Assembly: GCA_030065875.1 (NCBI GenBank)
Contig: JASJCR010000013.1
Span: forward strand, 17,645 to 81,644
Source: Ardenticatenaceae bacterium
GTDB taxonomy: Bacteria > Chloroflexota > Anaerolineae > Promineifilales > Promineifilaceae
Direction: 5' to 3'
Length of the DNA stretch: 64,000 nt
A model generated the notes under the pieces. That model saw nothing but the letters and a program-made list of their open reading frames with translations. It was not told the DNA's origin and ran no database searches. Made by a program: the position numbers and the translations under genes. This document shows positions 3 through 13,820 of this stretch, piece after piece. Within the stretch, counting starts at the first letter, position 1. Each line of letters opens with the position of its first letter.

Positions 3-3000
3 AATATCGATCCGGCCGCCGCGCCGGATGAGTTCGGTATCGTGATCAACGGCAGCAATCAGTGGGTGGGCGGAAGTGGCTCTTTGGTCTGGGCCCCGGC
101 CGCCGTCACGCAGACGTTTGCTGCGGCCGCCTTTTTGAACCCGCCACAGGACAGCTACCGGCTGACGGCCGGTTCGGTCGTCACGGCCGGCTATCACGCC
201 TACCGGCCGGACGCCACCGTCTCCACGACCGCCTGTGCAGGCTGCTTCTCTTCGGTTCAGGCGGCCGTCGACAGCGGGGCCAACGCCATTTTTGTCGAGC
301 CAGGTTTTTACACCGACTCGTTTTACCTGGTGCACGGCCTGAACCTGGTCGGCACGCGAGCTGACCTGACGATCATCGAAGGGAGCGGCTCGGCCACAGT
401 CACCGCTGAAGGGGTAAATGCTTCTCTCAGCCGCCTGACGCTCACTAGCTCGAGCGGTGGTAACGGGCTACAGGCCGAGCAGGGGGCGGACGTAACTGTT
501 TCGCGGACCATCATTCGCGACACGACCACGGCGGTGGCGCTTGACGGCAGCACCACCTCGGCCGAGCTGATCAACAGCAATCTGGTTAAAAACAACGCGG
601 GTGTAGTTTCCACCGCCCAGGCCGGTTTTAACATGCGCAACTCGATCATCGCCTACAATACCGGTATTGGTCTGAGCCACGCGGCCAACGCCAGCCAGAG
701 CGCTCACACCTATAATTTGTTCTGGCAAAACGGGGCCGATTTTGGCCAGGGGGCCGGTGCCGGTGCTGGGGAACTCTTCCTCGACCCGCTCTTTATCGAT
801 CTGGCGGCCGATGATTATCGCACCACCGACTTCTCACCGGTCATCGATGCCGGTGATCCGGGGGATCCGGCCCCGGCCAACAGCGGCACCGTGGATATCG
901 GCTTCCTCGAACAGGGGGTGGGCGGCATCTTTGTCGATGACGATTACTGCCCCACCTGCGCCAACGACGGCCTCGCCTGGGGTGTCGACGCCTTTGCCAC
1001 CATCCAGGAGGCCCTCGACGCGGCTGAAGCCCGGCTAATCGCCGTTGGCGACGCCCTTCTAGAGCGGCGATTGACCGTTGCGGTGGCCCCCGGCAGCTAC
1101 AGCGAAAACGTCACCGTGCCCAGCTATGTCAGCCTGAGTGGGAGCGGGCCGGATCAAACGGTTTTGACGGCCGCAGCGGCCGGTTCAACCGTCACTTTTG
1201 AAAACGTGACCCAGGCCACCCTCTCCGGTTTTCACGTGCAGGGGGCCAGCGGCGCGGGCTCAGCCAACGTCATGATCCGCACCGGCAGCCTGATCTCCGT
1301 GACGCGGAGCTTGCTCACCGGCTCGACCGGCGGGGCGGCGGCTATCCGTCTTGAGGCGGGCAGCACGGCGGACATCCAGTTTAATACGCTGGTCGTCAAC
1401 GAAGCCGGTATCCAGGTGGACGGTGCCCAAAGCTGGGCGGCCGTGCAAAACAACATCGTGGCCGACTCAGCCGGGGCTGGGCTGGCGTCCATTGGAGGAG
1501 GCCGCTTCTTTAACGATTACAACCTCTTCTACAACAACGCACCCGACTTCGGGAGCGGGTTGGTGGCTGGTGACGGGGACCTTACCGGTCAGAATCCGCA
1601 GTTCGCCCCGTCGTTTTACCGGCTGACGGCTACCTCTCCGGCCGTCGACCGGGCTGACCTGCTGGCTGAGGTGCCCGCAGGCGGCGGCGTGCGGGCCGAT
1701 ATCGGCTATCACGAGCTTCTGGCAGCGCCGGTGACGGTGCTGCTGGGGGATATCGACAACTCCAGGGCGCTAGCCAACTCCGGTGTGGCTCTGGTGGAAG
1801 TGGGGGTGGTGGCCGTGGCCGACGGCTCCCAGCCGGTGACGGCCACGCTGCCGTCAAGCTGGACCCCGGTCACGCTGCTCGGCAGCGCGGGGGATACGGT
1901 GCGCTTCTGGTCGGCCGATGTGCAGCCCGACAACGAAGGGATTTATCGCATTTACAGCCGGGCCACCGATGCTGAAGCCAACGGTGAAGCGGATGAAACG
2001 GTCTGGTTTGAAGGGACATTTTTGGCCGATGGGGTTGCCCCGGTTGTCACCAGCCCGACCGCTTCCAGCAGCTCGATCTCGCCCCTGGAACTGCGAGCCA
2101 CCACCTCCGATTTTGTGGCCGGTGAATTCACCATCGAGCAGGTTGGCTTTGTGGTCAACGGCCAGCCGGTGGCGGCGGAATGGGTTCCAGAGCCTTGGGA
2201 CGCTGCCGCGCAGCAGCCACGGGCCTTCCGGGCGCTGGTTGATCTGTCGGTGGGCAGCTACACGGTCACGGCCGTAGCCACCGATCGCTCGGGCCGGACC
2301 ACCACCTCGACCCCTCTGGCTCTGACAATTACCGGCCAGGCGTTCGACACGACCCCTCCCGGTCTGACTTTCACTGGGGCGTCGTCTCCTGGCGATAACA
2401 ACGTCATTGTCCTGGAAGGGACGGCCGGTGACGATACCGCTCTGCTGGGTGTCGAAGCCAGCTTTGATAACGGGCAGACGTGGCATCCGGCCGCCCTGTC
2501 CGGCAGCGATTGGACCCTGACCTACCAGGTGCAGGACGACCAGGAATATGTGACGTATGCTACCCTGCTCCGCTCGCGGGACGTGGCCGGCAACGTGGTC
2601 ACCCAAACGACGACGGTGACCTTTGACGACCAGCCGCCGCGCGGACTGGGCACCCTGCAGTTTGATCCGCCGCTGGGCAGTCATCTCGATTTTGCCCAGA
2701 CGCTGAGCGTGACCTGGGATGCACCGTTTGACGGTTCTGGTGTCGCTGAGGTCCAGGTGTTGATCGACCAGCTGCCGGAAAGTGAACCGACGACAACCGT
2801 GTTCGGTACGTCGACCGGGCAGTCGCTCAACGCCAACGGCCAGTGGTACGCTCACGTGGCCATGGAGGACAGCGGCGGCAACCGCATCTTGCGCCACTAC
2901 GGCCCTTGGTACGTCGGCGACATCAGCGGGGCGTGCCCCGACCGGCGGCAGTCTATCGTGCTCGATGGGGTCCTGAACTTTGAAGTTGACGAGTGGCTCC

Positions 3001-5885
3001 CGGCCGGGGAACTGCTCGATGATGACGAGCGGCCGCTTAACCGGGATACCCAGCTGCTGTTTGCCGCCTGGGATGCCGAGCACATTTACCTGGCCTGGCA
3101 AGGTGGGTGGTGGAATACCGACGGTTCCTTGTGGGCGTATCTCGATGTTACTGGCGACGGGAGTACAATCGCCCAGCAGGGTGGTCATGTTCTACCGTTT
3201 GCCGCTGATTACGCCGTTGAAATCGCCAGCGACAGCAGCGGCACCCTGTGGCAATACAGCGGCGGCAGCTGGGTCGACCAGGGAGCGGTTGACTTCATCC
3301 AGGGAGATTCCGGCGGCACCGAAATTGCCCTGCCGTTTGGCACCAACAGCTACAGCACCAACGTCAGGCTCTTCGCTTATGCCGAGGACGATCAGAGCGG
3401 CGTTTGGAGCACCTTCCCGACGACCAATCCGTTAAGCGGCAGCTGGACGAGCGCCTACAGCTGGGCCAATCTGTGCAGCAGTGTCCTGCCGAACGCCAAT
3501 CAGCCGCAGTCGAAGAATCTGGCCGTGAGCGTTTCCAGCCCGCAGTCAACCGGCACGCCGTGGGGCCCGGGGGAAACGCTGTCGTATGCAATCGAAGTGA
3601 CCAACAACGAAATTAGCGGCTTGCTTTCGGGGGTTGAACTTGCGGTTGAGGGCACGTCTGGTCTGGGCTATCAGAGCAGTCAGGGTGCGGTCTGTACTGA
3701 CTGTACTCCGGGTGCCGGCAGCTGGACGCTGGCGCTTGATCCGTTTGTGCCTGGAGAAACACAAACGGTCATCGTGACCGGCACGTTGGAGACCCAGCCT
3801 GTTCTGGCTGCCGTGGACCAGGTCACCACCACCGTCACGGTGGTGCGCAATGCGGTTGAGTTGGCGGTTGACAGTTTGGTTCACGCGGTAGACGGCAAGC
3901 CGCCGACGGTAACCCTGACGATCAACGACGATCTGTCGATTTTGCCCGGCGCGCAGACATTAAGCGGTGCGGCGGCCGATGCCGGTGGTTCCGGGATCGA
4001 TTATGTGCAGGTGCGTCCGGCCGGCGGGAGCTGGTCACCCGCCGCCGGCACGACGAGCTGGACATTTGACCTGACTGTTCCGCTTGTGACGACTTACACG
4101 GTTGAGCTGCGGGCGTTTGATCAAAACGGCAACGCCAGCCCGATTGTAAGCGTACCGCTGGTGGTCGATCAGACCGCCCCGCAGATCGATTTCTCACTGC
4201 CGGTTTACGTCACCGACACGCTGGCTGCTCTAAGCGGCACGGCGGCCGATCCTGCTCCTGTCGGTGGCTCAATCGCGGATGTGGCCCTGCAGTTTGAGGA
4301 CCCATCGGCCCCCTTCGCCTCAGCCATCGTTTATGATCCCGATCAGGCCGGGCAGCAGGGGTGGCTCTACGGCTGGACGACGCCGAGCCTCGATGGCCAG
4401 GTCGTGCAGGTGCGGGCTCAGGCCACCGACGCGGCCGGCAATCAAATGGTGACCGGCTGGCTGACGACGACGGTTGATACCCGCCTGCCGGTCATCACCG
4501 CCACGCAGATGATCACCACCGTGCTTTTTGACGAGTATTATTTAGCGGCCGTCGGTCCGGCGGTCCTGAGCGGTCAGGTGACCGACAACCTGCTGGACGA
4601 AGTCTGGATCGAGCTGCACACTCCAGCTAGCGAAGTGTACATTTTCCCTCAGACCATATCTGGGGATGAGTGGGCGTATGATTTTGCTCTGCCGACCAGC
4701 GAGGCCGGTCTTTATCTGGTTTGGATCCACGCTACCGATTTAGCCGGCAACCGGCAGATCGAAGGGCCGTTTGAAATCGTCGTTGAGCCCACGGCCGATC
4801 TGCTGCTGGACAAGCGGGTCTCCACCGGTGCGGCCGTGCCGGGTGATGAGATTCAGTACACGCTGACCTTCACCAACAGCGGCTTGCTAACCGTCGATGA
4901 CGCGGTCCTGAGTGATCCACTGCCGGGAGAGCTGGTCAACCCCAGCTTTGAATCCTCGGTGCCGGTTACGACTACCGGGTCAACCCCGTATCGCTGGCTG
5001 CTGCCGCCATTGACGCCCAGCATGTCTGGGATGATTACCGTTACGGCCGAGATCCAAAATCCGCTGACCGGCACGGTCACCATTACCAACAGCGCCACGC
5101 TAAGTTCCGCCGGGGTATTTGATCTCGACGGGGGAAATAACGGGGATTCGGCCGTCGTGGCTGCGGCCGATGTGGCCATTTCCGGTCTGGCGGCCAGCAA
5201 CAGTGGCCCGGTGGCGGTCAACCAGCCGGTTTTGGTGGCGGCAGCCGAAACGGTCGGGACCAACGTGCACTACAGCTGGGATCTGGGTGACGGCAGCAGC
5301 GGCAGCGGTTCTCAGGTGACCCATACGTTTGCCGCTCCGGGAATATACACGGCCACCGTGACGGCCACCAACGGCACGTCGCAGGTCACTGCAGAAACGG
5401 AGATCGAGGTCGTAGAAGCGTTTTACACCTATTTGCCGGGGGTGATGCATGAATATTTCCCACCTGCTCCGGATCTGGTGGTCTCTGGAATTAAGGCTAC
5501 AACCGGTGGTGTTGAGATCACAATTGAGAATATCGGCGGGGCCTCAGTGACCGATGGTTTCTGGGTCGAGCTGTATCTCAACCCGGATGTGGTGCCGTCG
5601 GAGGTGAACCAGATTTGGCCGGATCTGGGGGATCGCGGGGCGACCTGGGGCGTGACGGCCGAGGCTCTGCCGCTCGAGCCAGGTGAGACGCTGGTTTTGA
5701 CGCTGGAAGACGACTATTTTGTAGCGGAGTACAGTGTTTGGCGCGACGCCCTGCGTTCAGGGACGGTAGTGTATGCTCAGGTGGATTCGGCCGCGGCCAG
5801 CACGACCTATGGTGGGGTACAGGAGAGTCACGAAATCAGCGGCGGGGCGTATAACAACGTCAGCGGGCCGGTGGTGATTCCATAG
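3..5885 (+). CDS. Giant secreted/surface multidomain protein (5'-truncated by window): parallel beta-helix repeats, Ig-like/bacterial adhesin repeats, DUF11-like, PKD domain
   Basis: Open frame continues upstream of the listed start (codons 3-41 read NIDPAAAPDEFGI); beta-helix-like segments (VDDDYCPTCANDGLAWGVDAFATIQEALD), DUF11-like LLLDKRVSTGAAVPGDEIQYTLTFTNSG, PKD YSWDLGDGSSGSG..HTFAAPGIYTATVTA. Confidence 0.85.
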   Translation, partial: NIDPAAAPDEFGIVINGSNQWVGGSGSLVWAPAAVTQTFAAAAFLNPPQDSYRLTAGSVVTAGYHAYRPDATVSTTACAGCFSSVQAAVDSGANAIFVEPGFYTDSFYLVHGLNLVGTRADLTIIEGSGSATVTAEGVNASLSRLTLTSSSGGNGLQAEQGADVTVSRTIIRDTTTAVALDGSTTSAELINSNLVKNNAGVVSTAQAGFNMRNSIIAYNTGIGLSHAANASQSAHTYNLFWQNGADFGQGAGAGAGELFLDPLFIDLAADDYRTTDFSPVIDAGDPGDPAPANSGTVDIGFLEQGVGGIFVDDDYCPTCANDGLAWGVDAFATIQEALDAAEARLIAVGDALLERRLTVAVAPGSYSENVTVPSYVSLSGSGPDQTVLTAAAAGSTVTFENVTQATLSGFHVQGASGAGSANVMIRTGSLISVTRSLLTGSTGGAAAIRLEAGSTADIQFNTLVVNEAGIQVDGAQSWAAVQNNIVADSAGAGLASIGGGRFFNDYNLFYNNAPDFGSGLVAGDGDLTGQNPQFAPSFYRLTATSPAVDRADLLAEVPAGGGVRADIGYHELLAAPVTVLLGDIDNSRALANSGVALVEVGVVAVADGSQPVTATLPSSWTPVTLLGSAGDTVRFWSADVQPDNEGIYRIYSRATDAEANGEADETVWFEGTFLADGVAPVVTSPTASSSSISPLELRATTSDFVAGEFTIEQVGFVVNGQPVAAEWVPEPWDAAAQQPRAFRALVDLSVGSYTVTAVATDRSGRTTTSTPLALTITGQAFDTTPPGLTFTGASSPGDNNVIVLEGTAGDDTALLGVEASFDNGQTWHPAALSGSDWTLTYQVQDDQEYVTYATLLRSRDVAGNVVTQTTTVTFDDQPPRGLGTLQFDPPLGSHLDFAQTLSVTWDAPFDGSGVAEVQVLIDQLPESEPTTTVFGTSTGQSLNANGQWYAHVAMEDSGGNRILRHYGPWYVGDISGACPDRRQSIVLDGVLNFEVDEWLPAGELLDDDERPLNRDTQLLFAAWDAEHIYLAWQGGWWNTDGSLWAYLDVTGDGSTIAQQGGHVLPFAADYAVEIASDSSGTLWQYSGGSWVDQGAVDFIQGDSGGTEIALPFGTNSYSTNVRLFAYAEDDQSGVWSTFPTTNPLSGSWTSAYSWANLCSSVLPNANQPQSKNLAVSVSSPQSTGTPWGPGETLSYAIEVTNNEISGLLSGVELAVEGTSGLGYQSSQGAVCTDCTPGAGSWTLALDPFVPGETQTVIVTGTLETQPVLAAVDQVTTTVTVVRNAVELAVDSLVHAVDGKPPTVTLTINDDLSILPGAQTLSGAAADAGGSGIDYVQVRPAGGSWSPAAGTTSWTFDLTVPLVTTYTVELRAFDQNGNASPIVSVPLVVDQTAPQIDFSLPVYVTDTLAALSGTAADPAPVGGSIADVALQFEDPSAPFASAIVYDPDQAGQQGWLYGWTTPSLDGQVVQVRAQATDAAGNQMVTGWLTTTVDTRLPVITATQMITTVLFDEYYLAAVGPAVLSGQVTDNLLDEVWIELHTPASEVYIFPQTISGDEWAYDFALPTSEAGLYLVWIHATDLAGNRQIEGPFEIVVEPTADLLLDKRVSTGAAVPGDEIQYTLTFTNSGLLTVDDAVLSDPLPGELVNPSFESSVPVTTTGSTPYRWLLPPLTPSMSGMITVTAEIQNPLTGTVTITNSATLSSAGVFDLDGGNNGDSAVVAAADVAISGLAASNSGPVAVNQPVLVAAAETVGTNVHYSWDLGDGSSGSGSQVTHTFAAPGIYTATVTATNGTSQVTAETEIEVVEAFYTYLPGVMHEYFPPAPDLVVSGIKATTGGVEITIENIGGASVTDGFWVELYLNPDVVPSEVNQIWPDLGDRGATWGVTAEALPLEPGETLVLTLEDDYFVAEYSVWRDALRSGTVVYAQVDSAAASTTYGGVQESHEISGGAYNNVSGPVVIP

Positions 5886-5993: not shown

Positions 5994-7388
5994 TTAATTT
6001 CCTGAGCGCGGGCGTCCTTCTGGAAATAGCTGGTATCCTCCCTCCGGCTTCCCTCGCCAGTTGACTATAAATTGCGGGTGAGAAGGAGAAGGTTCGATTT
6101 TGCGGCGAAGGGAGGCGATGGTCTGATAAAGACTATCGTCGGTTACCCCTTTGATTTGAGCTGGCTCTGGCCAGGCTCCTTCAATGATTTCATTTTTTGT
6201 CAAACGAGCTCGGGGCTGGCCAACCATAAACGCGAGTACTTTTTGCTCTAGAGGTTGAAGTCCCGTCAAAGGATGAACGCCTTGAAAAATTTGTTTGGTT
6301 TCCTCATCAAACCAGATAGGGCCGCGAAGTCGGCCGCCTGCTTGCTCAAAATACGCCCCAACCAGGTTTGAGCAAATTGCTGGATCACCTGTAGGTGTGC
6401 AGATTCCCTTCCGTTTAAGAGATCGCCACAGCGACTTCCGGTTTAGGCTATTAACATTTTGAATCGCCGATGTGTTGTTTTTTGCTAACTCGCGCAAAAA
6501 ATTTATTTCGGCCACACTTAATCCAAATTCAATTTCACGCAACCGAGTCTTGAGCGGCGGATGCGCCAAAGCAGCGATCAGGGCCGGTTCCAAAGCTGGG
6601 TTTTGAGCCGCTACAGCTGGCCACCAATGGATCAAGGATTTAAGCAAAGATGGAAACCGGCCGGAAAGATTAAGCAGAAATTGGCGCTCACTATCATTTA
6701 AGGTCATATTTCCACGCAATTCCCGGTCGATCATTCCCTGGGCATCGGCTTCTGATAACATAGGTACCCAGCAGATATGGTTATCAATCACCTCATACAG
6801 CTCTCCTAAAATGGTGGGATCTGCTAAATAAGCTGCTTCCTGGCGCATGCCGACGATAAAGACCAGGATTCCTTTATAGCGATCGCGTAATCCCCGCAAC
6901 GCGTTAATCATATAGGGGGTAGCCATCTCACAAAATTCATCAAAGCGATCAAAAACCAATCCCAGACGCGTTTTATTCTGCTGAAAGTAACCGAGCAATT
7001 CTCTCAAAGCGCTCTGGGCCAGAAATGGGTCCTGGGTTGTCCGATACATTTCATATAAGGCGTTGGTTTTTTTCTGAAGTGGTTCCGGTAGGTTTGCTTG
7101 CCTTTCGTAAATGGCGCGCAGCAAAACGCGATAAAAAGTTGCTGGTGTTTCATCAGGAATATCATTAAGATCAACCGGAACAAGAATATAATGCAGCGAT
7201 TCCCCCTTAAATAATTTCTCCATCACATCCGGCCGATGGCAAATATATCGAAGTAGATTGGACTTTCCACTACCGGCCAGACCAATGACGCTGCCGCTGC
7301 GCCCCTCGCGCAGCCAGGTGACGATCTGCTCGATTTCTTTCTGCCGATAATTTGTCCCAAATGCCCGCCAATCAATCAAATCTGCCAT
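5994..7388 (-). CDS. AAA-type ATPase with C-terminal winged-helix (OmpR/PhoB-type) DNA-binding domain
   Basis: Walker A GLAGSGKSNLL near N-terminus; C-terminal LTKNEIIEGAWPE..VTDDSLYQTIASLRRKIEP..FIVNWRGKPEGGYQL typical of trans_reg_C. Confidence 0.8.
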   Translation of the reverse strand: MADLIDWRAFGTNYRQKEIEQIVTWLREGRSGSVIGLAGSGKSNLLRYICHRPDVMEKLFKGESLHYILVPVDLNDIPDETPATFYRVLLRAIYERQANLPEPLQKKTNALYEMYRTTQDPFLAQSALRELLGYFQQNKTRLGLVFDRFDEFCEMATPYMINALRGLRDRYKGILVFIVGMRQEAAYLADPTILGELYEVIDNHICWVPMLSEADAQGMIDRELRGNMTLNDSERQFLLNLSGRFPSLLKSLIHWWPAVAAQNPALEPALIAALAHPPLKTRLREIEFGLSVAEINFLRELAKNNTSAIQNVNSLNRKSLWRSLKRKGICTPTGDPAICSNLVGAYFEQAGGRLRGPIWFDEETKQIFQGVHPLTGLQPLEQKVLAFMVGQPRARLTKNEIIEGAWPEPAQIKGVTDDSLYQTIASLRRKIEPSPSHPQFIVNWRGKPEGGYQLFPEGRPRSGN

Positions 7389-7509
7389 ATTTCCTCTTCC
7401 TGATCATATCCTGAGCAATTTCTGATATTTATTTTCTCAAGATAATCTGCTCGAGATTTTTTATGCTGTAACCAGCTAGCCATTCAATAACGATACCGTT
7501 GAGCATCTC

Positions 7510-7581
7510 ATGAGCGAACCCGCCAGCGGGCTGGCCGGTTCGGGCGCCATTCTCAACGAGTTCATCCCGCGAAGGAGGTGA
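7510..7581 (+). CDS. Possible 23-aa upstream ORF (MSEPASGLAGSGAILNEFIPRRR) whose stop overlaps the Shine-Dalgarno of the next ORF
   Basis: ATG 7510, TGA 7579-7581 inside GAAGGAGGTGA; no clear RBS of its own. Confidence 0.3.
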   Translation: MSEPASGLAGSGAILNEFIPRRR

Positions 7582-7587
7582 CTCGAG

Positions 7588-7728
7588 ATGCTACGTGAAT
7601 GGTTTGGAAAACATTTGCGCACTGTAATGGTGGCCGGGTTGGCCCTGATGCTCATAGGGGCACCCATTGCCTCCCAGCCAGCATTTGCTGATTGCTCCGG
7701 TGCAGGTTCATCGACTTGCAGTGGCTAA
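7588..7728 (+). CDS. 46-aa secreted micropeptide: MLREWFGKHLRTVMVAGLALMLIGAPIASQPAFADCSGAGSSTCSG
   Basis: Strong RBS AAGGAGG (7572-7578) 9 nt upstream of ATG; charged N-term, hydrophobic core, A-F-A cleavage-like site, two Cys in a 12-aa mature tail; not in supplied ORF list (below length cut-off). Confidence 0.55.
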   Translation: MLREWFGKHLRTVMVAGLALMLIGAPIASQPAFADCSGAGSSTCSG

Positions 7729-7748
7729 ACCTCAGAGGGAGAGGCTGG

Positions 7749-8969
7749 TCATAATATGTGGCCAGCCAATTCCCTTTGCAGCTCACTATATTTATTGCCG
7801 TATTTGGCTGCCAGGTCATTAGCCCACTTATCATCAGGGTGCCTGGCAAAATAATCAAGCGCTTGTTGTAACAATGATGAGGCCCGATGAGCATTGCTTG
7901 TCGCCAGATTGACTTCCGCCAGACTGGCCAGAGCATTCCCCAGTTGCACTTCCTGGCCTACCCTTGGCCACACCTGGATCGCTTCTTCCAGGGCTTGCTC
8001 GGCGCGATCCAGCTGCCCCGCCTTAAATAGGGCGTACCCCAGGTTGGTGAGTACATGAGCAAGACGCCCCTCGTAACCCTGATTGGCTAAATACTCCCGG
8101 TTTATGTTTGAAAACAAACGCACCGCTTCCGGCCAATTTCCCTGAACAGCCTGTAAAAACCCTTGGTTAAGCTGAACGGTGGTTTTGTCAAACTCATAAC
8201 CTGAATTAGCCAATATCGACCAGGCAATAGACAGTTGTTGTTCCGCCTGCGGTATTTCCTCTGCGGCCTGGTAAGCAAGGGCCAGGTTGCTCCGAAAGCG
8301 AGCTTCATAAAGCGTTTGCTGGTTTTCATGGGCTAATTCAATGGCCTGGGAAAGATATTGTTTCGACTCCGCCAACTCACGCTGATAGCGCGCAGCCTCA
8401 CCCAGGGTGTTGAGAATCACAGCCAACCGTTTTTTCTGATTGGGAATTTTGGTAAAAAAATCCAGTGCCTGCCTGGCGTGTGCTTTGGCCTCAGGATAGC
8501 GACGAAGGGCGATATAAGCCTCCCCCAAATTGTAGTGGGTGATAGCGATTAATTGATCTTGTTGGATTTCGCGCGCCAGAGTCAAGGCATCCAGATGGAA
8601 GGATAATGCTTGTTGGGGCAAGTAGCGCATGCGGTGAATTTGACCGAGGCGGTTGAGCAATCGAATCTCGAGGCGCTTTTCGGAAAGCCCCATCTCACGA
8701 TAGGCAAATTCAAAATGCGGCAGCCAGTCAAGCCAATAATCTCGTCCTTCTACCAAATCACAGGCATCAAGAGCGGCTACAAGGGCATCTTGCTGTACAG
8801 CCGGTTCTTCCAACCCATAACGAATCACGTGAAAAAGATTGCTTTTTTCAGCATCAAGTTTCTGAAGCACCTGCTGATCAGGCCGGGCCAGCTGATTTTG
8901 CCAATACTGAACAGCAGCGGCCGTTTGGGCCGCAAAAATAGAATTGACGCGCGATTCCAAACTATTCAT
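7749..8969 (-). CDS. TPR-repeat protein
   Basis: Repeated TPR-like helices (ALAREIQQDQLIAITHYNLGEAYIALRRYPEAKAHARQALDFF etc.); overlaps upstream STAND ORF by ATGAATAG. Confidence 0.8.
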   Translation of the reverse strand: MNSLESRVNSIFAAQTAAAVQYWQNQLARPDQQVLQKLDAEKSNLFHVIRYGLEEPAVQQDALVAALDACDLVEGRDYWLDWLPHFEFAYREMGLSEKRLEIRLLNRLGQIHRMRYLPQQALSFHLDALTLAREIQQDQLIAITHYNLGEAYIALRRYPEAKAHARQALDFFTKIPNQKKRLAVILNTLGEAARYQRELAESKQYLSQAIELAHENQQTLYEARFRSNLALAYQAAEEIPQAEQQLSIAWSILANSGYEFDKTTVQLNQGFLQAVQGNWPEAVRLFSNINREYLANQGYEGRLAHVLTNLGYALFKAGQLDRAEQALEEAIQVWPRVGQEVQLGNALASLAEVNLATSNAHRASSLLQQALDYFARHPDDKWANDLAAKYGNKYSELQRELAGHIL

Positions 8970-10377
8970 ACATTTCCCGTTTCAAAATTTCTTGATGAAT
9001 AAAGGTGGATGTCAAACGGTGAATACCGTAACGTTTTTCTTTTAGGTCTCCGCGAACTTCCAAAAGGGATCGGGTTCGCAATTCGCCAACAGCTGGCCAA
9101 AAATGGTCCGCATTCAGCTGTGATATCTCCCTTAAGTAGTCCAGGGTACCGCCGGATTCACCGATCAGGGGCATTGCAAGCAGCAGGGTTTTGGCTGGAT
9201 CACTCAAAGTTTCCCAAGCGTAGCGGTAAATATGGGAATACATATCTTCAATATGCCCTGACTGGCCTTCTTCCAATCCCTTCAGCAGATCCCCCAGGTT
9301 CATCCAATCGAGAAGGCTAACAATCAATTTGAGAGCCAGTGGGTTTCCCCCAACTAGCGCGTAAATTGCTTCAATTTCGGCCTCGCCTGCCCTTGCCCAC
9401 GCAGCAACATTTCTTTCCTTAGCATAATTATTTAGAAGAGCGGCCGCATCGGTCTGAGACAAGGCGTCCACTTCAAAATGAAAGGCGGCGATTGTGGGAT
9501 CCAGGTGGGTGCGTGTAGTCAAGAGAAATTTTGACGGGTGGGTAAGCTGCATCAATTGGGAAGCGATATATGAGGTTTCTGCTTCCACTTCGAGATTATC
9601 AATCACAACTAAGCATGGTCGGCTGTTTAAAATTTGGCGCAGATGGAAAAGCTTATCCTTTCTAGAAAACACATCAACATGCGGGGCCAGGATCCTCATC
9701 ATGGCATCAATAACCGGGTCAAAGGATGGCTCCAGAGAGTGGTGGCGATGACGGACGTCCCTCAAATTAACTCGGACCCAAACGATGTCATCAAAGTGTA
9801 AGGCCTCTATAGCATCTCGGGCGAGAATATCCGCCAGAGCGGTTTTGCCAATACCTCCGATCCCCGTTAAAGTCAATACCCACGGACCAGCGGGCTGCAA
9901 GAGTTTTTTCCCTAGAAAAAGGCGCGTTTCTTTTAAACCAAACAACTGGGAGTAGCTTTTGGGGGGCAGACGGAGCTTGAGGCGGCCAATTCGGTCTTGT
10001 CGCAGGGCCAGTTCTTCTTCAAGAATAAGTTCCGAAAGCCTTCTGATCGCTTTTCGCTGGCGACGACTGATGGTATGCTCGCTTAGGCTCAGTTTGTTGC
10101 CGACCGTATACAGCTTGTTCTCTTCCATAAAGCGCAGACGAATTATCTGGGCTGCAACCTCATCATGGACGGCAAGCTGATCTAGTTGCTCTTCAATGAT
10201 TTCTTTGATCACCTCATAGGGATTTGTTGAGGATGTTGTGTGGGAAGCGAGCTTCTGTTTGACGATCTGAAAATCAGCGAGAGGAGCGGGGTTAACCATT
10301 TTTTTCCCCGACCATGATTTTAAAACCTGGTGAATTTTTTCCACAATTTCATCGATGTTATATCTTGTCATCACCAA
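8962..10377 (-). CDS. NB-ARC/STAND-family ATPase with N-terminal HTH-like region
   Basis: P-loop LTGIGGIGKTALA, Walker B-like CLVVIDNLE, FLLTTRT, GGNPLALKLIV motifs. Confidence 0.85.
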   Translation of the reverse strand: MVMTRYNIDEIVEKIHQVLKSWSGKKMVNPAPLADFQIVKQKLASHTTSSTNPYEVIKEIIEEQLDQLAVHDEVAAQIIRLRFMEENKLYTVGNKLSLSEHTISRRQRKAIRRLSELILEEELALRQDRIGRLKLRLPPKSYSQLFGLKETRLFLGKKLLQPAGPWVLTLTGIGGIGKTALADILARDAIEALHFDDIVWVRVNLRDVRHRHHSLEPSFDPVIDAMMRILAPHVDVFSRKDKLFHLRQILNSRPCLVVIDNLEVEAETSYIASQLMQLTHPSKFLLTTRTHLDPTIAAFHFEVDALSQTDAAALLNNYAKERNVAAWARAGEAEIEAIYALVGGNPLALKLIVSLLDWMNLGDLLKGLEEGQSGHIEDMYSHIYRYAWETLSDPAKTLLLAMPLIGESGGTLDYLREISQLNADHFWPAVGELRTRSLLEVRGDLKEKRYGIHRLTSTFIHQEILKREMYE

Positions 10378-10808: not shown

Positions 10809-12509
10809 TTACCACCAGGCCACTTCCGGCCGTTGCTGTTTACACAGGTTAGCAAGTTCTCTCAACCTCCCTCGCATTTCAAGATAACGGATTAAATTGA
10901 TAGAGAATTCGAGTTTTTCATTACCTGCGATTAGATCAACATCGATGTCAAGCAAAAACGGCAATGATCGCATTTCTACAAATGAAAAATGTTTAACCAA
11001 TCCCCGTTGCAGAACGCGACGATCAATTTCAACATGCTCAGGTAATTCCGATATAGGGGAAGTTTGGGATAAGGGAGAAATGGGCCGAGTATCTTCCGAA
11101 CAATCCGGAAAATTCCCCTGGGCCAAAGCCGCAGCGGTTGCCGCTCCCCAAAAGACACATTGGCGGGCAACGACTGATAGATTGTTAAATTTAATTGCTC
11201 CCAAGAACGTGAGGAATAAACCATCATAATACTCTTGCCAATTTCCTATTTGGAAAAATTGGGCTTGAGCTGCGCGCCTCAACATCAAAGTTAAAGCAAA
11301 TGGTGTTTCGAGACCAACTGACGATTTTGGATCACGGCTGTTTACCCAGGAACAATGTAGCTGGTTCAAGTAGTCAAATATTACTTCGGGTTTGATTTCC
11401 TTGTCTTTTTGGGTATCGACAAATAAGGAAGTAAAGATACTCAGCTCAAGCATGAAAAAATCGCGCAAGATTTGATCCCGCCGGGATTTGCCAAAATCAA
11501 TCACGTGAACGTTCCCACGTTTCGTTTCGACCATGATGTTGTTGAGATGGAGATCCCCATGAATAGAAGCTGTAAGGCTGTCGTATGAATTTTTGACGAT
11601 CTTTTTGTAAAAGTGAATGGGATTGGGGAGTTCAGTTCCCGCTATGACAATTTGGTTTTCCTGAGCGAAATCAGCGGCTGTGCCAAAGATTTCAACTATT
11701 TTTTTTTGCAAGAACGTATCTCGGGTATCAGTGATCATCCCTAAAATGGGCATCTGTAAGGGAATGCCAATTTCATAACCATCAATATCAGGAGCATTGG
11801 TTAGATAAAACCGAAACCTTGGATTGCCTTTTGGGGAATTAAAAAGGACCCTTTGCGTAGCCAGGTCGATTTCTTCGGGCTCGAATCCAAATATCTGTAC
11901 AATTTGACCCGCTTGCCAGTCCTGGAGGCGAAATGAACCTGGGGAAAGAAAATGAACGTCCAAACCCTCTTCAGGTAGATATTGAATTGTGAGGTTGGCT
12001 GGTAAATATGAGTCAAAAAAATTTTTAAGATGAAGGTCGTTTTCGATTTGACTCTGGCCCCATAACGCTTGAAAGCTAGTTAACAGCCGCTCAAAGACAT
12101 CTAAACATTCCTGAACGGTATGATTTTGAGCGTAATCTGAGAAGCTGCTAATCTCATATACCCCATCACCCGCAAGGGAATACCACAAGCCAGCTAATTG
12201 GCTTCCTGGTGGATAAGTGGGCTCCTGGCGTATGCTGGCAACGTCAGGCATACGGTTTTTGATGTACTTCTCATAGCCCGCCATTTCCCGCTCTATTTCG
12301 TGTACGCTGGCAATCTTGACAACCGCCTCTAGCTCGGCTCCAGTGCTGTGTATGGGGCGTACTTTGTAGACAAAACTGCCACCTAGCCCTTCAGAAAATT
12401 CATGTAAAATGTTGACTCGCGTATATTTGGAAAACATTGCGCGCAGGACGCGTTTCACCTTGTTGTCAAGCGGTTTGGAAAGACGGCTATCATCGATGGG
12501 GATGGTCAT
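10809..12509 (-). CDS. APH/choline-kinase-like phosphotransferase family protein
   Basis: Catalytic-loop-like HGDLHLNNIMV...HVIDFGKSRRDQILRDFFMLEL. Confidence 0.65.
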   Translation of the reverse strand: MTIPIDDSRLSKPLDNKVKRVLRAMFSKYTRVNILHEFSEGLGGSFVYKVRPIHSTGAELEAVVKIASVHEIEREMAGYEKYIKNRMPDVASIRQEPTYPPGSQLAGLWYSLAGDGVYEISSFSDYAQNHTVQECLDVFERLLTSFQALWGQSQIENDLHLKNFFDSYLPANLTIQYLPEEGLDVHFLSPGSFRLQDWQAGQIVQIFGFEPEEIDLATQRVLFNSPKGNPRFRFYLTNAPDIDGYEIGIPLQMPILGMITDTRDTFLQKKIVEIFGTAADFAQENQIVIAGTELPNPIHFYKKIVKNSYDSLTASIHGDLHLNNIMVETKRGNVHVIDFGKSRRDQILRDFFMLELSIFTSLFVDTQKDKEIKPEVIFDYLNQLHCSWVNSRDPKSSVGLETPFALTLMLRRAAQAQFFQIGNWQEYYDGLFLTFLGAIKFNNLSVVARQCVFWGAATAAALAQGNFPDCSEDTRPISPLSQTSPISELPEHVEIDRRVLQRGLVKHFSFVEMRSLPFLLDIDVDLIAGNEKLEFSINLIRYLEMRGRLRELANLCKQQRPEVAWW

Positions 12510-12989: not shown

Positions 12990-13820
12990 TCAAGTATGAA
13001 AGTTCAGGATGACCCGTTTTTTTTCTTCAGCAACGCCCGTGACAAAGTAGCGGTATAGGTGCAGCCACTGCTCGAGGGAGAGGTGGCTGGGCAGGGCCTC
13101 GCTGGGAAAGCGGCCGTCTTTGGCCAACCGTTTCCACTGATTGTGGGTAAAAACGTTTTTGTACCCGATTTTAAGGTTTTTTCGCCAGCGGCGAAAGCCA
13201 TAGGTGACAAATTTGTAATACAGATCTTTATGATGAGGTTCGAGTTGGGGGCTGACCCGTTTTTGCATGTGCAGCAGGGTTGCATCGACTCTGGGCACCG
13301 GCCGAAATTCAAAGCGATTGATGTTGGCCAGGTTTTCAAACGTAAACCACGGCTGAAAGAGAATTGAAGATTCGGTTGAGGCATTCTGGCCGATAAACTT
13401 GTCGGCCGCTTCCCGCTGCATGATGAAGTAGGCGTCGTGTGGCGGATGATTGGACCGCCACAGCTTGAGCATGATGGGGGCGGTAATATTGAACGGGATA
13501 TTAGAGAAGATGTTGAACGGCTTGGTGGGCAAGCTCGTTTTCAGAAAATCCCCGTTTTTGATTTCCACGTTTGGTATTTTGGCGAGGGATTTGCGCAGGT
13601 TGGCGGCGAGCTGGTGATCTATTTCGATGGCCGTGACCCGGCCGGCCCTTTTGGCTACTTCTCGGGTAATGATCCCTTCACCCGGTCCGATTTCCAGAAC
13701 GAGATCTTCGGCCGAGAAACCAGCTTTGCCCACCAGCTGCCGCACCGTTTTGGCGTGGATCAGGAAGTTTTGGGCGAAATCTTTTTGCTGCCTGTTTTTT
13801 CTTGAATCGCTCAACCACAC
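12990..13820 (-). CDS. Erm-type 23S rRNA (adenine-N6)-methyltransferase-like protein
   Basis: QNFLIHAKTVRQLV, VLEIGPGEGIITREVAKRAGRVTAIEID, NIFSNIPFNITAPIM (Erm-like motif IV). Confidence 0.75.
   Translation of the reverse strand: MWLSDSRKNRQQKDFAQNFLIHAKTVRQLVGKAGFSAEDLVLEIGPGEGIITREVAKRAGRVTAIEIDHQLAANLRKSLAKIPNVEIKNGDFLKTSLPTKPFNIFSNIPFNITAPIMLKLWRSNHPPHDAYFIMQREAADKFIGQNASTESSILFQPWFTFENLANINRFEFRPVPRVDATLLHMQKRVSPQLEPHHKDLYYKFVTYGFRRWRKNLKIGYKNVFTHNQWKRLAKDGRFPSEALPSHLSLEQWLHLYRYFVTGVAEEKKRVILNFHT

Follow-up and report, generated by a model that had tools for sequence, protein, structure and literature searches.

A fast-diversifying family of small secreted cysteine peptides with a conserved leader RNA looks like a new cell signaling module in Chloroflexota

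A short open reading frame (ORF) next to a divergent regulator gene may be a chance ORF or a peptide gene with a role of its own. We asked which of these applies to a 46-amino-acid ORF in the window (the whole 64,000-nucleotide stretch of DNA analyzed here) and what its product might do. The ORF is a coding gene with signal-peptide architecture, and it lies behind a conserved RNA structure in a conserved gene context, flanked on both sides by operons for regulators that resemble immune receptors. The features of the locus are listed below in window coordinates; start codons, cleavage sites, and the promoter are calls from the sequence.

5994-7388, minus strand: AAA/STAND-like ATPase with a C-terminal OmpR-type wHTH (Trans_reg_C; Pfam), divergent to the peptide gene
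7462-7467, plus strand: candidate -10 element TATGCT at -126 (weak, by consensus only)
7497-7558, plus strand: structured leader RNA (covariance model R1, covariation), containing the next four elements
7497-7503/7552-7558, plus strand: P1, CGTTGAG/CTCAACG
7507-7514, plus strand: palindrome CTCATGAG
7515-7542, plus strand: variable hairpin P2
7543-7548, plus strand: palindrome GGCGCC
7510-7581, plus strand: 23-codon upstream ORF (ATG 7510, TGA 7579-7581), probably an incidental reading frame within the leader RNA
7572-7578, plus strand: Shine-Dalgarno sequence AAGGAGG with a 9-nt spacer, predicted to lie within a hairpin that has the start codon among its outer pairs
7588-7728, plus strand: peptide ORF, 46 amino acids (ATG 7588, stop 7726-7728; family alignments and pN/pS)
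7588-7689, plus strand: predicted signal peptide MLREWFGKHLRTVMVAGLALMLIGAPIASQPAFA, part of the peptide ORF
7690-7725, plus strand: predicted tail DCSGAGSSTCSG, part of the peptide ORF
7743-7767, plus strand: terminator-like hairpin 3' of the peptide ORF, overlapping the 3' end of the TPR gene
7749-8969, minus strand: TPR protein of 406 amino acids (Pfam), convergent to the peptide gene; candidate peptide-binding partner
8962-10377, minus strand: NB-ARC protein with a sigma70 region-4 HTH (Pfam), operon partner of the TPR gene
10809-12509, minus strand: TCAD9-APH-EAD7 protein (Pfam), linked to AAA-wHTH in other loci too

The peptide gene and its relatives

The original prediction placed a secreted cysteine micropeptide at 7588-7728, and comparison with related genomes bears this out. 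The AAGGAGG ribosome-binding site is present, and the sequence is as described in its signal-peptide pattern and its mature tail of about 12 amino acids with C-x7-C. The predicted precursor consists of MLREWFGKHLRTVMVAGLALMLIGAPIASQPAFA followed by DCSGAGSSTCSG, with an AxA cleavage site (AFA/DC) and cysteines C36 and C44. A search of 59 related genomes gave homologs of equal length and identical end point (G018, G032, G028, G006, and G015), and further members turned up when 52 genomes of the family were searched with a profile. All genomes compared are metagenome-assembled genomes (MAGs), and some loci are cut by contig ends (G015 is split). About 40 relatives belong to a single uncultured family of Anaerolineae, and weaker ones lie outside it.

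Conservation of the reading frame had been set as the check on the prediction, and the gene passed it. Pooled over seven pairs, pS was 0.386 and pN was 0.101 (pN/pS of 0.26); between G026b and G005, synonymous changes numbered 11 (4 of them in the tail) and nonsynonymous changes 2 (none in the tail). Because of this purifying selection, the ORF is very likely translated, and the comparison of same-architecture homologs confirms a gene for a putatively secreted 46-amino-acid Cys-peptide as more than a chance ORF.

Member peptides are 42 to 50 amino acids long, with a basic start, a single hydrophobic segment, and a hypervariable C-x5-8-C tail that usually has a final Gly (C-x-G). A -3/-1 cleavage site ending in A directly precedes the tail in 21 of 32 members. 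The tails diverge between loci yet are kept among close orthologs, and conservation in the family alignments is strongest at the two tail cysteines and the final Gly. Hairpins of 7 to 13 bp lie 3' of nearly all members (with a T-run in 11/32). Four other members carry a candidate -10 element at -117 to -133; a sigma-70 promoter scan of the window returned no scored promoter on the plus strand.

At one locus (L160, G003:C784), the leader RNA is followed by a Gly-rich secreted peptide without cysteine (ending in SLAGGGWSGGGSTNGG) beside an NBARC-TPR operon, and because of this peptide, the Cys pair is apparently not absolutely required. Another locus (G067:C35, L031, minus strand) holds a second, signal-less tail copy, VFADCSTSSSTNCSG followed by a stop, about 110 nt past the peptide stop, after the terminator and without a ribosome-binding site. 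This copy looks like a relic of tail duplication and may hint at a route of tail diversification.

Class-wide profile matches outside the family proved in most cases to be the signal peptides of larger proteins, and we set them aside; the NBARC-TPR operon was the route by which members beyond the family were later found. The peptide has no named family in Pfam, NCBIfam, or PADLOC, and we found no prior description of this peptide system in the literature. Judging from these comparisons, the peptides are a Chloroflexota family without earlier description that diversifies fast and has the look of a novel type of cell signaling module.

Gene neighborhood and the candidate partner

With the window TPR protein as the query, we obtained 46 matches in 31 of the 52 family genomes, nearly all encoded downstream of an NB-ARC gene. 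Inspection of the opposite strand past the TPR gene showed that 29 of the 35 NBARC-TPR operons in the family end against a convergent peptide gene, including extra peptides too divergent for the profile. A strict fixed-rule scan found a peptide at 23/35 TPR 3' ends versus 4/394 control ORF ends. All four control positives were 3' ends of TPR-CHAT genes with the same kind of peptide, so that true controls gave 0/390. Among loci largely outside the family (NBARC-TPR loci of named Anaerolineae, Caldilineales, and other Chloroflexota MAGs), a peptide was present at 10 of 35 NBARC-TPR ends versus 4 of 334 controls, two of which resemble the same family.

The opposite flank of the peptide is occupied, in most loci where enough sequence is available, by a divergent regulator in which an N- or C-terminal HTH is fused to a STAND ATPase. 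The types were AAA-wHTH, HTH-NB-ARC-TPR, HTH-NACHT with membrane segments, and HTH-nSTAND1-like-WD40 (the last read from the sequence). Regulator type varies between loci, and the peptide and TPR protein are retained. The AAA-wHTH gene does face the window peptide divergently, as originally described, and it does so in 7 loci of the 32-member set and in 4 CHAT-type loci; the context is typical of peptide/regulator pairs, as suggested, and is repeated across dozens of loci.

In a second locus class (L171, L172, L173, and L176, the last cut before the sigma gene), the convergent genes encode a sigma factor, a protein of about 280 amino acids without a Pfam match, and TPR-CHAT, and the divergent genes encode AAA-wHTH/TCAD9. 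In this class, the peptides combine a long pro-region with a tail that hardly varies (NGGGSQSGCGG or a close variant). Two copies (G005:C23 [L174] and G026:C150 [L175]) have lost the signal peptide and the AAA-wHTH and sigma genes and retain the leader RNA and an intact GGGSQSGCGG tail beside TPR-CHAT. These could be decaying genes. Because the tail is unchanged beside TPR-CHAT despite the loss of the signal peptide, they also hint that the tail itself may be recognized in the cytosol.

Other features of these neighborhoods were recorded as well. A gene for a DJ-1/PfpI-looking protein of about 157 amino acids lies divergently upstream of the NB-ARC gene, about 2.9 to 3.7 kb beyond the peptide (14 genes in 11 genomes, e.g., L022 at 13213-13686, plus strand), and was not seen in the window. 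The window itself has a GC-rich (60 to 64%) ORF of 1947 amino acids with repeated Ig/PKD-like surface-protein segments adjoining the AAA-wHTH gene (42-5885, plus strand) and an RrnaAD-type rRNA adenine methyltransferase gene, KsgA- or Erm-like (12990-13820, minus strand; Pfam PF00398, 5.6e-47). The palindrome ACGGCCGT is highly iterated, with 730 copies in 649 kb of related loci (more than 1 per kb, where about 10 are expected for a random 8-mer) and only 11 in the 64-kb window.

The AF2 model of the TPR protein (pLDDT of 94.4) was best matched, among the Foldseek matches listed, by NprR (TMq of 0.65), Rap (0.62), and MalT domain III (0.60), although TPR folds, like NB-ARC proteins, are generic. 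NprR and Rap are peptide receptors. Tail divergence correlated with TPR divergence (Mantel r of 0.50; partial r of 0.25 given NB-ARC), whereas the partial r between tail and NB-ARC given TPR was 0.04; the tail-TPR correlation may partly reflect shared ancestry. Peptide type also tracks the convergent TPR partner instead of the divergent regulator: CHAT loci have the GGGSQSGCGG-type tails, and one and the same AAA-wHTH regulator is found alongside either peptide type. Given that the tails diverge in step with the TPR protein and that their type goes with the class of the convergent partner, we favor a tail that is read by the TPR protein. We give an even chance to the full reading, an RNA-gated exported signaling peptide with a tail read by TPR/STAND proteins, in which sensing, the disulfide, and gating are the parts that we infer. 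Points against a signaling module include the G003 peptide without cysteine, several members without a clean AxA site, and the result that no transporter, import permease, or processing peptidase recurs nearby.

The strongest rival is that the peptide reports export failure. The peptide would be exported constantly, and failure of Sec or the membrane (by phage or stress) would let the uncleaved precursor or the tail build up in the cytosol, where binding by TPR, TPR-CHAT, or STAND proteins would trigger defense or death. The NLR-like (NB-ARC, NACHT) and CHAT partners are typical of conflict systems, TCAD9/EAD domains lie nearby, and the signal-less peptides with an intact tail beside TPR-CHAT fit as well. 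Hypervariable tails, however, suggest partner-specific recognition among coexisting systems over a generic export gauge, the recurrent neighbors include no defense-island genes, and PADLOC system models gave only a generic TPR match to the core proteins. We therefore consider this rival unlikely, if worth keeping in mind.

A secreted bacteriocin-like toxin, with the neighboring regulators controlling it or giving self-protection, seems improbable. Such a product would be small, secreted, Cys-bearing, diversifying, and strongly regulated, like the peptides here, and Kaur et al. (2020) suggested a toxin-or-signal role for FxSxx-type peptides of AP-ATPase/TPR systems (PMC7159879). Against it, the tail of about 12 amino acids is small, Gly/Ser/Thr-rich, and neither cationic nor hydrophobic, and the neighbors include no recurrent gene for an immunity membrane protein or a dedicated exporter.

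The leader RNA

Most peptides are preceded by the consensus CGTTGAG-nn-TCTCATGAG-(hairpin P2)-GGCGC(GC)C-nnn-CTCAACG. Hairpin P2 has its own sequence and length (11 to 28 nt) in each member, yet it pairs with itself, and the spacing of the palindromes shifts with it. Comparing own with swapped arms gave z = -9.5 for P2 and z = -5.0 for P1 (pieces marked by eye). In an alignment of 9 sequences, 87% of the pairing cells could pair versus 70% in shuffled alignments, and covariation was 0.573 versus 0.263. The corresponding values for 18 sequences, an alignment that was fitted to the covariance model and hence leans toward it, were 89% (70% in shuffles) and 0.516 (0.212 in shuffles), neither of which any shuffle reached.

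Covariance model R1, trained on nine members with the window left out, matched the window leader at 47 bits (E of 5.9e-9), its sole match in the 7.4-Mb genome. In the 52 family genomes, R1 gave 23 matches at E <= 5.2e-4, every one of which (23/23) precedes a small peptide ORF with a ribosome-binding site; 8 of these led to new peptides, two without a signal peptide and one without cysteine. Across 396 genomes of the class, R1 is confined to the family except for 4 matches at E of 1e-3 to 1e-2, which we treated as chance. Matches in G019:C615 (inside an ABC-transporter-like gene), G068, and G027 were dismissed as false or unconvincing. Rfam 15 had no meaningful match to the leader. The leader has strong covariation and a conserved structure and is a putative new cis-regulatory RNA motif. 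It is not obligatory, because some members are without it (G018, G032, G028, G066, G067a, G013, G034, G010, and G061b).

The same elements could instead be DNA operators for the neighboring HTH proteins, since CTCATGAG, GGCGC(GC)C, and CGTTGAG..CTCAACG are palindromes or inverted repeats between promoter and ribosome-binding site. Operators would hardly account for a P2 that differs per member and always keeps its own arm paired, for palindrome spacing that varies with P2, or for 42 double-changed cells versus 14.9 in shuffles (18-sequence analysis). We think this quite improbable.

The original prediction also took a 23-amino-acid upstream ORF ending in the ribosome-binding site as a translational-coupling layout. 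The ORF is there, but coupling was not borne out, as neither length nor stop is conserved: it ranges from 3 to 23 codons across members, is absent in several, and runs past the main start in three. Its ATG falls within the leader motif CTCATGAG, in a region that is a covarying structured RNA. We rejected it as a conserved coupling device and judge it to be probably incidental.

In the window, the predicted fold favors pairing between the leader strand GCATCTC and the start-codon segment GAGATGC, at -42.3 kcal/mol, over P1, at -36.6 kcal/mol; the two pairings are a possible off/on switch. Complementarity to the start codon across members was -247 versus -162 +/- 11 in shuffles, but own versus swapped pairing gave no support beyond the consensus (P = 0.20); we rejected it as a conserved switch and keep it as a hypothesis only. 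The hairpin at the ribosome-binding site, P3, is weak by the same comparison (z = -2.2; P = 0.016).

A type I toxin-like membrane micropeptide, whose hydrophobic segment depolarizes the membrane and whose leader hides the ribosome-binding site as in tisB/hok mRNAs, would suit the 42 to 50 amino acids, the one hydrophobic segment, the structured 5' leader, and the Shine-Dalgarno sequence in a hairpin, but it is very improbable given the conservation peak at the tail cysteines and final Gly, the cleavage sites of most members, and the long pro-regions of the CHAT class.

Proposed mechanism and comparison with known systems

Under the signaling reading that we prefer, leader RNA, peptide ORF, and terminator-like hairpin would form a monocistronic mRNA. 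The divergent HTH-STAND regulator probably sets its transcription, and the leader probably controls translation, leaving the start codon accessible or masking it. The 46-amino-acid precursor would be exported by Sec and cut by signal peptidase I to the two-Cys tail of about 12 amino acids, which probably forms a disulfide loop outside the cell. As the specificity part, the tail would be bound by the convergently encoded TPR protein, allowing self-signaling. Output would then pass from the TPR protein to its operon partner, the NB-ARC protein with a sigma-r4 HTH, and, in the second class, through the TPR-CHAT protease with a sigma factor.

To our knowledge, inputs have been described for few bacterial STAND/NLR and TPR-CHAT proteins. 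A peptide encoded alongside such proteins, with a hypervariable tail and its own structured RNA, would be a directly testable receptor ligand. The analysis contributes, in addition, a putative cis-regulatory RNA motif that is new and a micropeptide family of about 40 members unnamed in family libraries. We found no description of a peptide quorum-sensing system for Chloroflexota in the literature. Only tentatively do we go further and see here a new class of bacterial communication or alarm by peptides, in Chloroflexota that are probably filamentous. In it, exported Cys-loop peptides of diversified specificity, under the translational control of a new riboregulator, would be wired directly into NLR-like (NB-ARC/NACHT) and caspase-like (CHAT) effectors.

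The module is a member of neither of the two peptide systems that it most calls for comparison with, RRNPPA and FxSxx-COOH. Haft and Basu reportedly described FxSxx-COOH peptide-processing systems in 2011. Those found with AP-ATPase/TPR conflict systems have a small diverging precursor, need a metallopeptidase, and carry other motifs (PMC7159879). The likenesses are a fast-diverging small precursor with a more conserved C terminus, linkage to NB-ARC/AP-ATPase and TPR genes, and multicellular bacteria as hosts. Here, however, there is a Sec signal peptide, the recurrent neighbors within 8 kb include no zincin or other metallopeptidase, no processing peptidase, and no radical SAM, and the tails (C-x5-8-C-x-G) have no FxSxx, RxD, or acidic C-terminal motif and no NCBIfam match.

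RRNPPA systems combine peptide-TPR logic with a one-protein HTH-TPR receptor (PMC11343458). Like Rap-Phr, NprR, PlcR, and AimR, the module has a small precursor, predicted to be exported, whose active part would be C-terminal and whose gene adjoins that of a TPR protein (an adjacent secreted propeptide in 29/35 operons, convergent); the TPR protein has the fold of the C-terminal peptide-binding domain of such receptors and resembles NprR and Rap in its model, within the limits of a generic fold. Unlike RRNPPA systems, it is hosted by Anaerolineae and not Bacillota, and the peptide gene converges on the TPR gene instead of following it in the same direction. RRNPPA receptors carry an HTH (or the Rap 3-helix bundle) in the same protein; here, Pfam found no HTH in the TPR protein, the DNA-binding domain being in the separate NB-ARC/sigma-r4 protein. 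Two conserved cysteines and a structured leader RNA set the module apart further, and no import permease (no Opp gene) or other transporter recurs within 8 kb.

The partner proteins have known counterparts too. As in MalT/AfsR-type STAND transcription factors, there is an NB-ARC ATPase, a TPR sensor, and an HTH output, and matches of the TPR protein include MalT domain III and the TPR part of AfsR; unlike in those factors, separate HTH-NB-ARC and TPR proteins carry these parts, and a peptide gene accompanies them. The second class, with its sigma factor, protein of about 280 amino acids, and TPR-CHAT, is like TPR-CHAT/sigma operons such as the Craspase TPR-CHAT with a sigma factor. Unlike Craspase-type operons, the CHAT-type loci, in which we noticed no CRISPR genes, have a peptide and its RNA leader at the CHAT 3' end.
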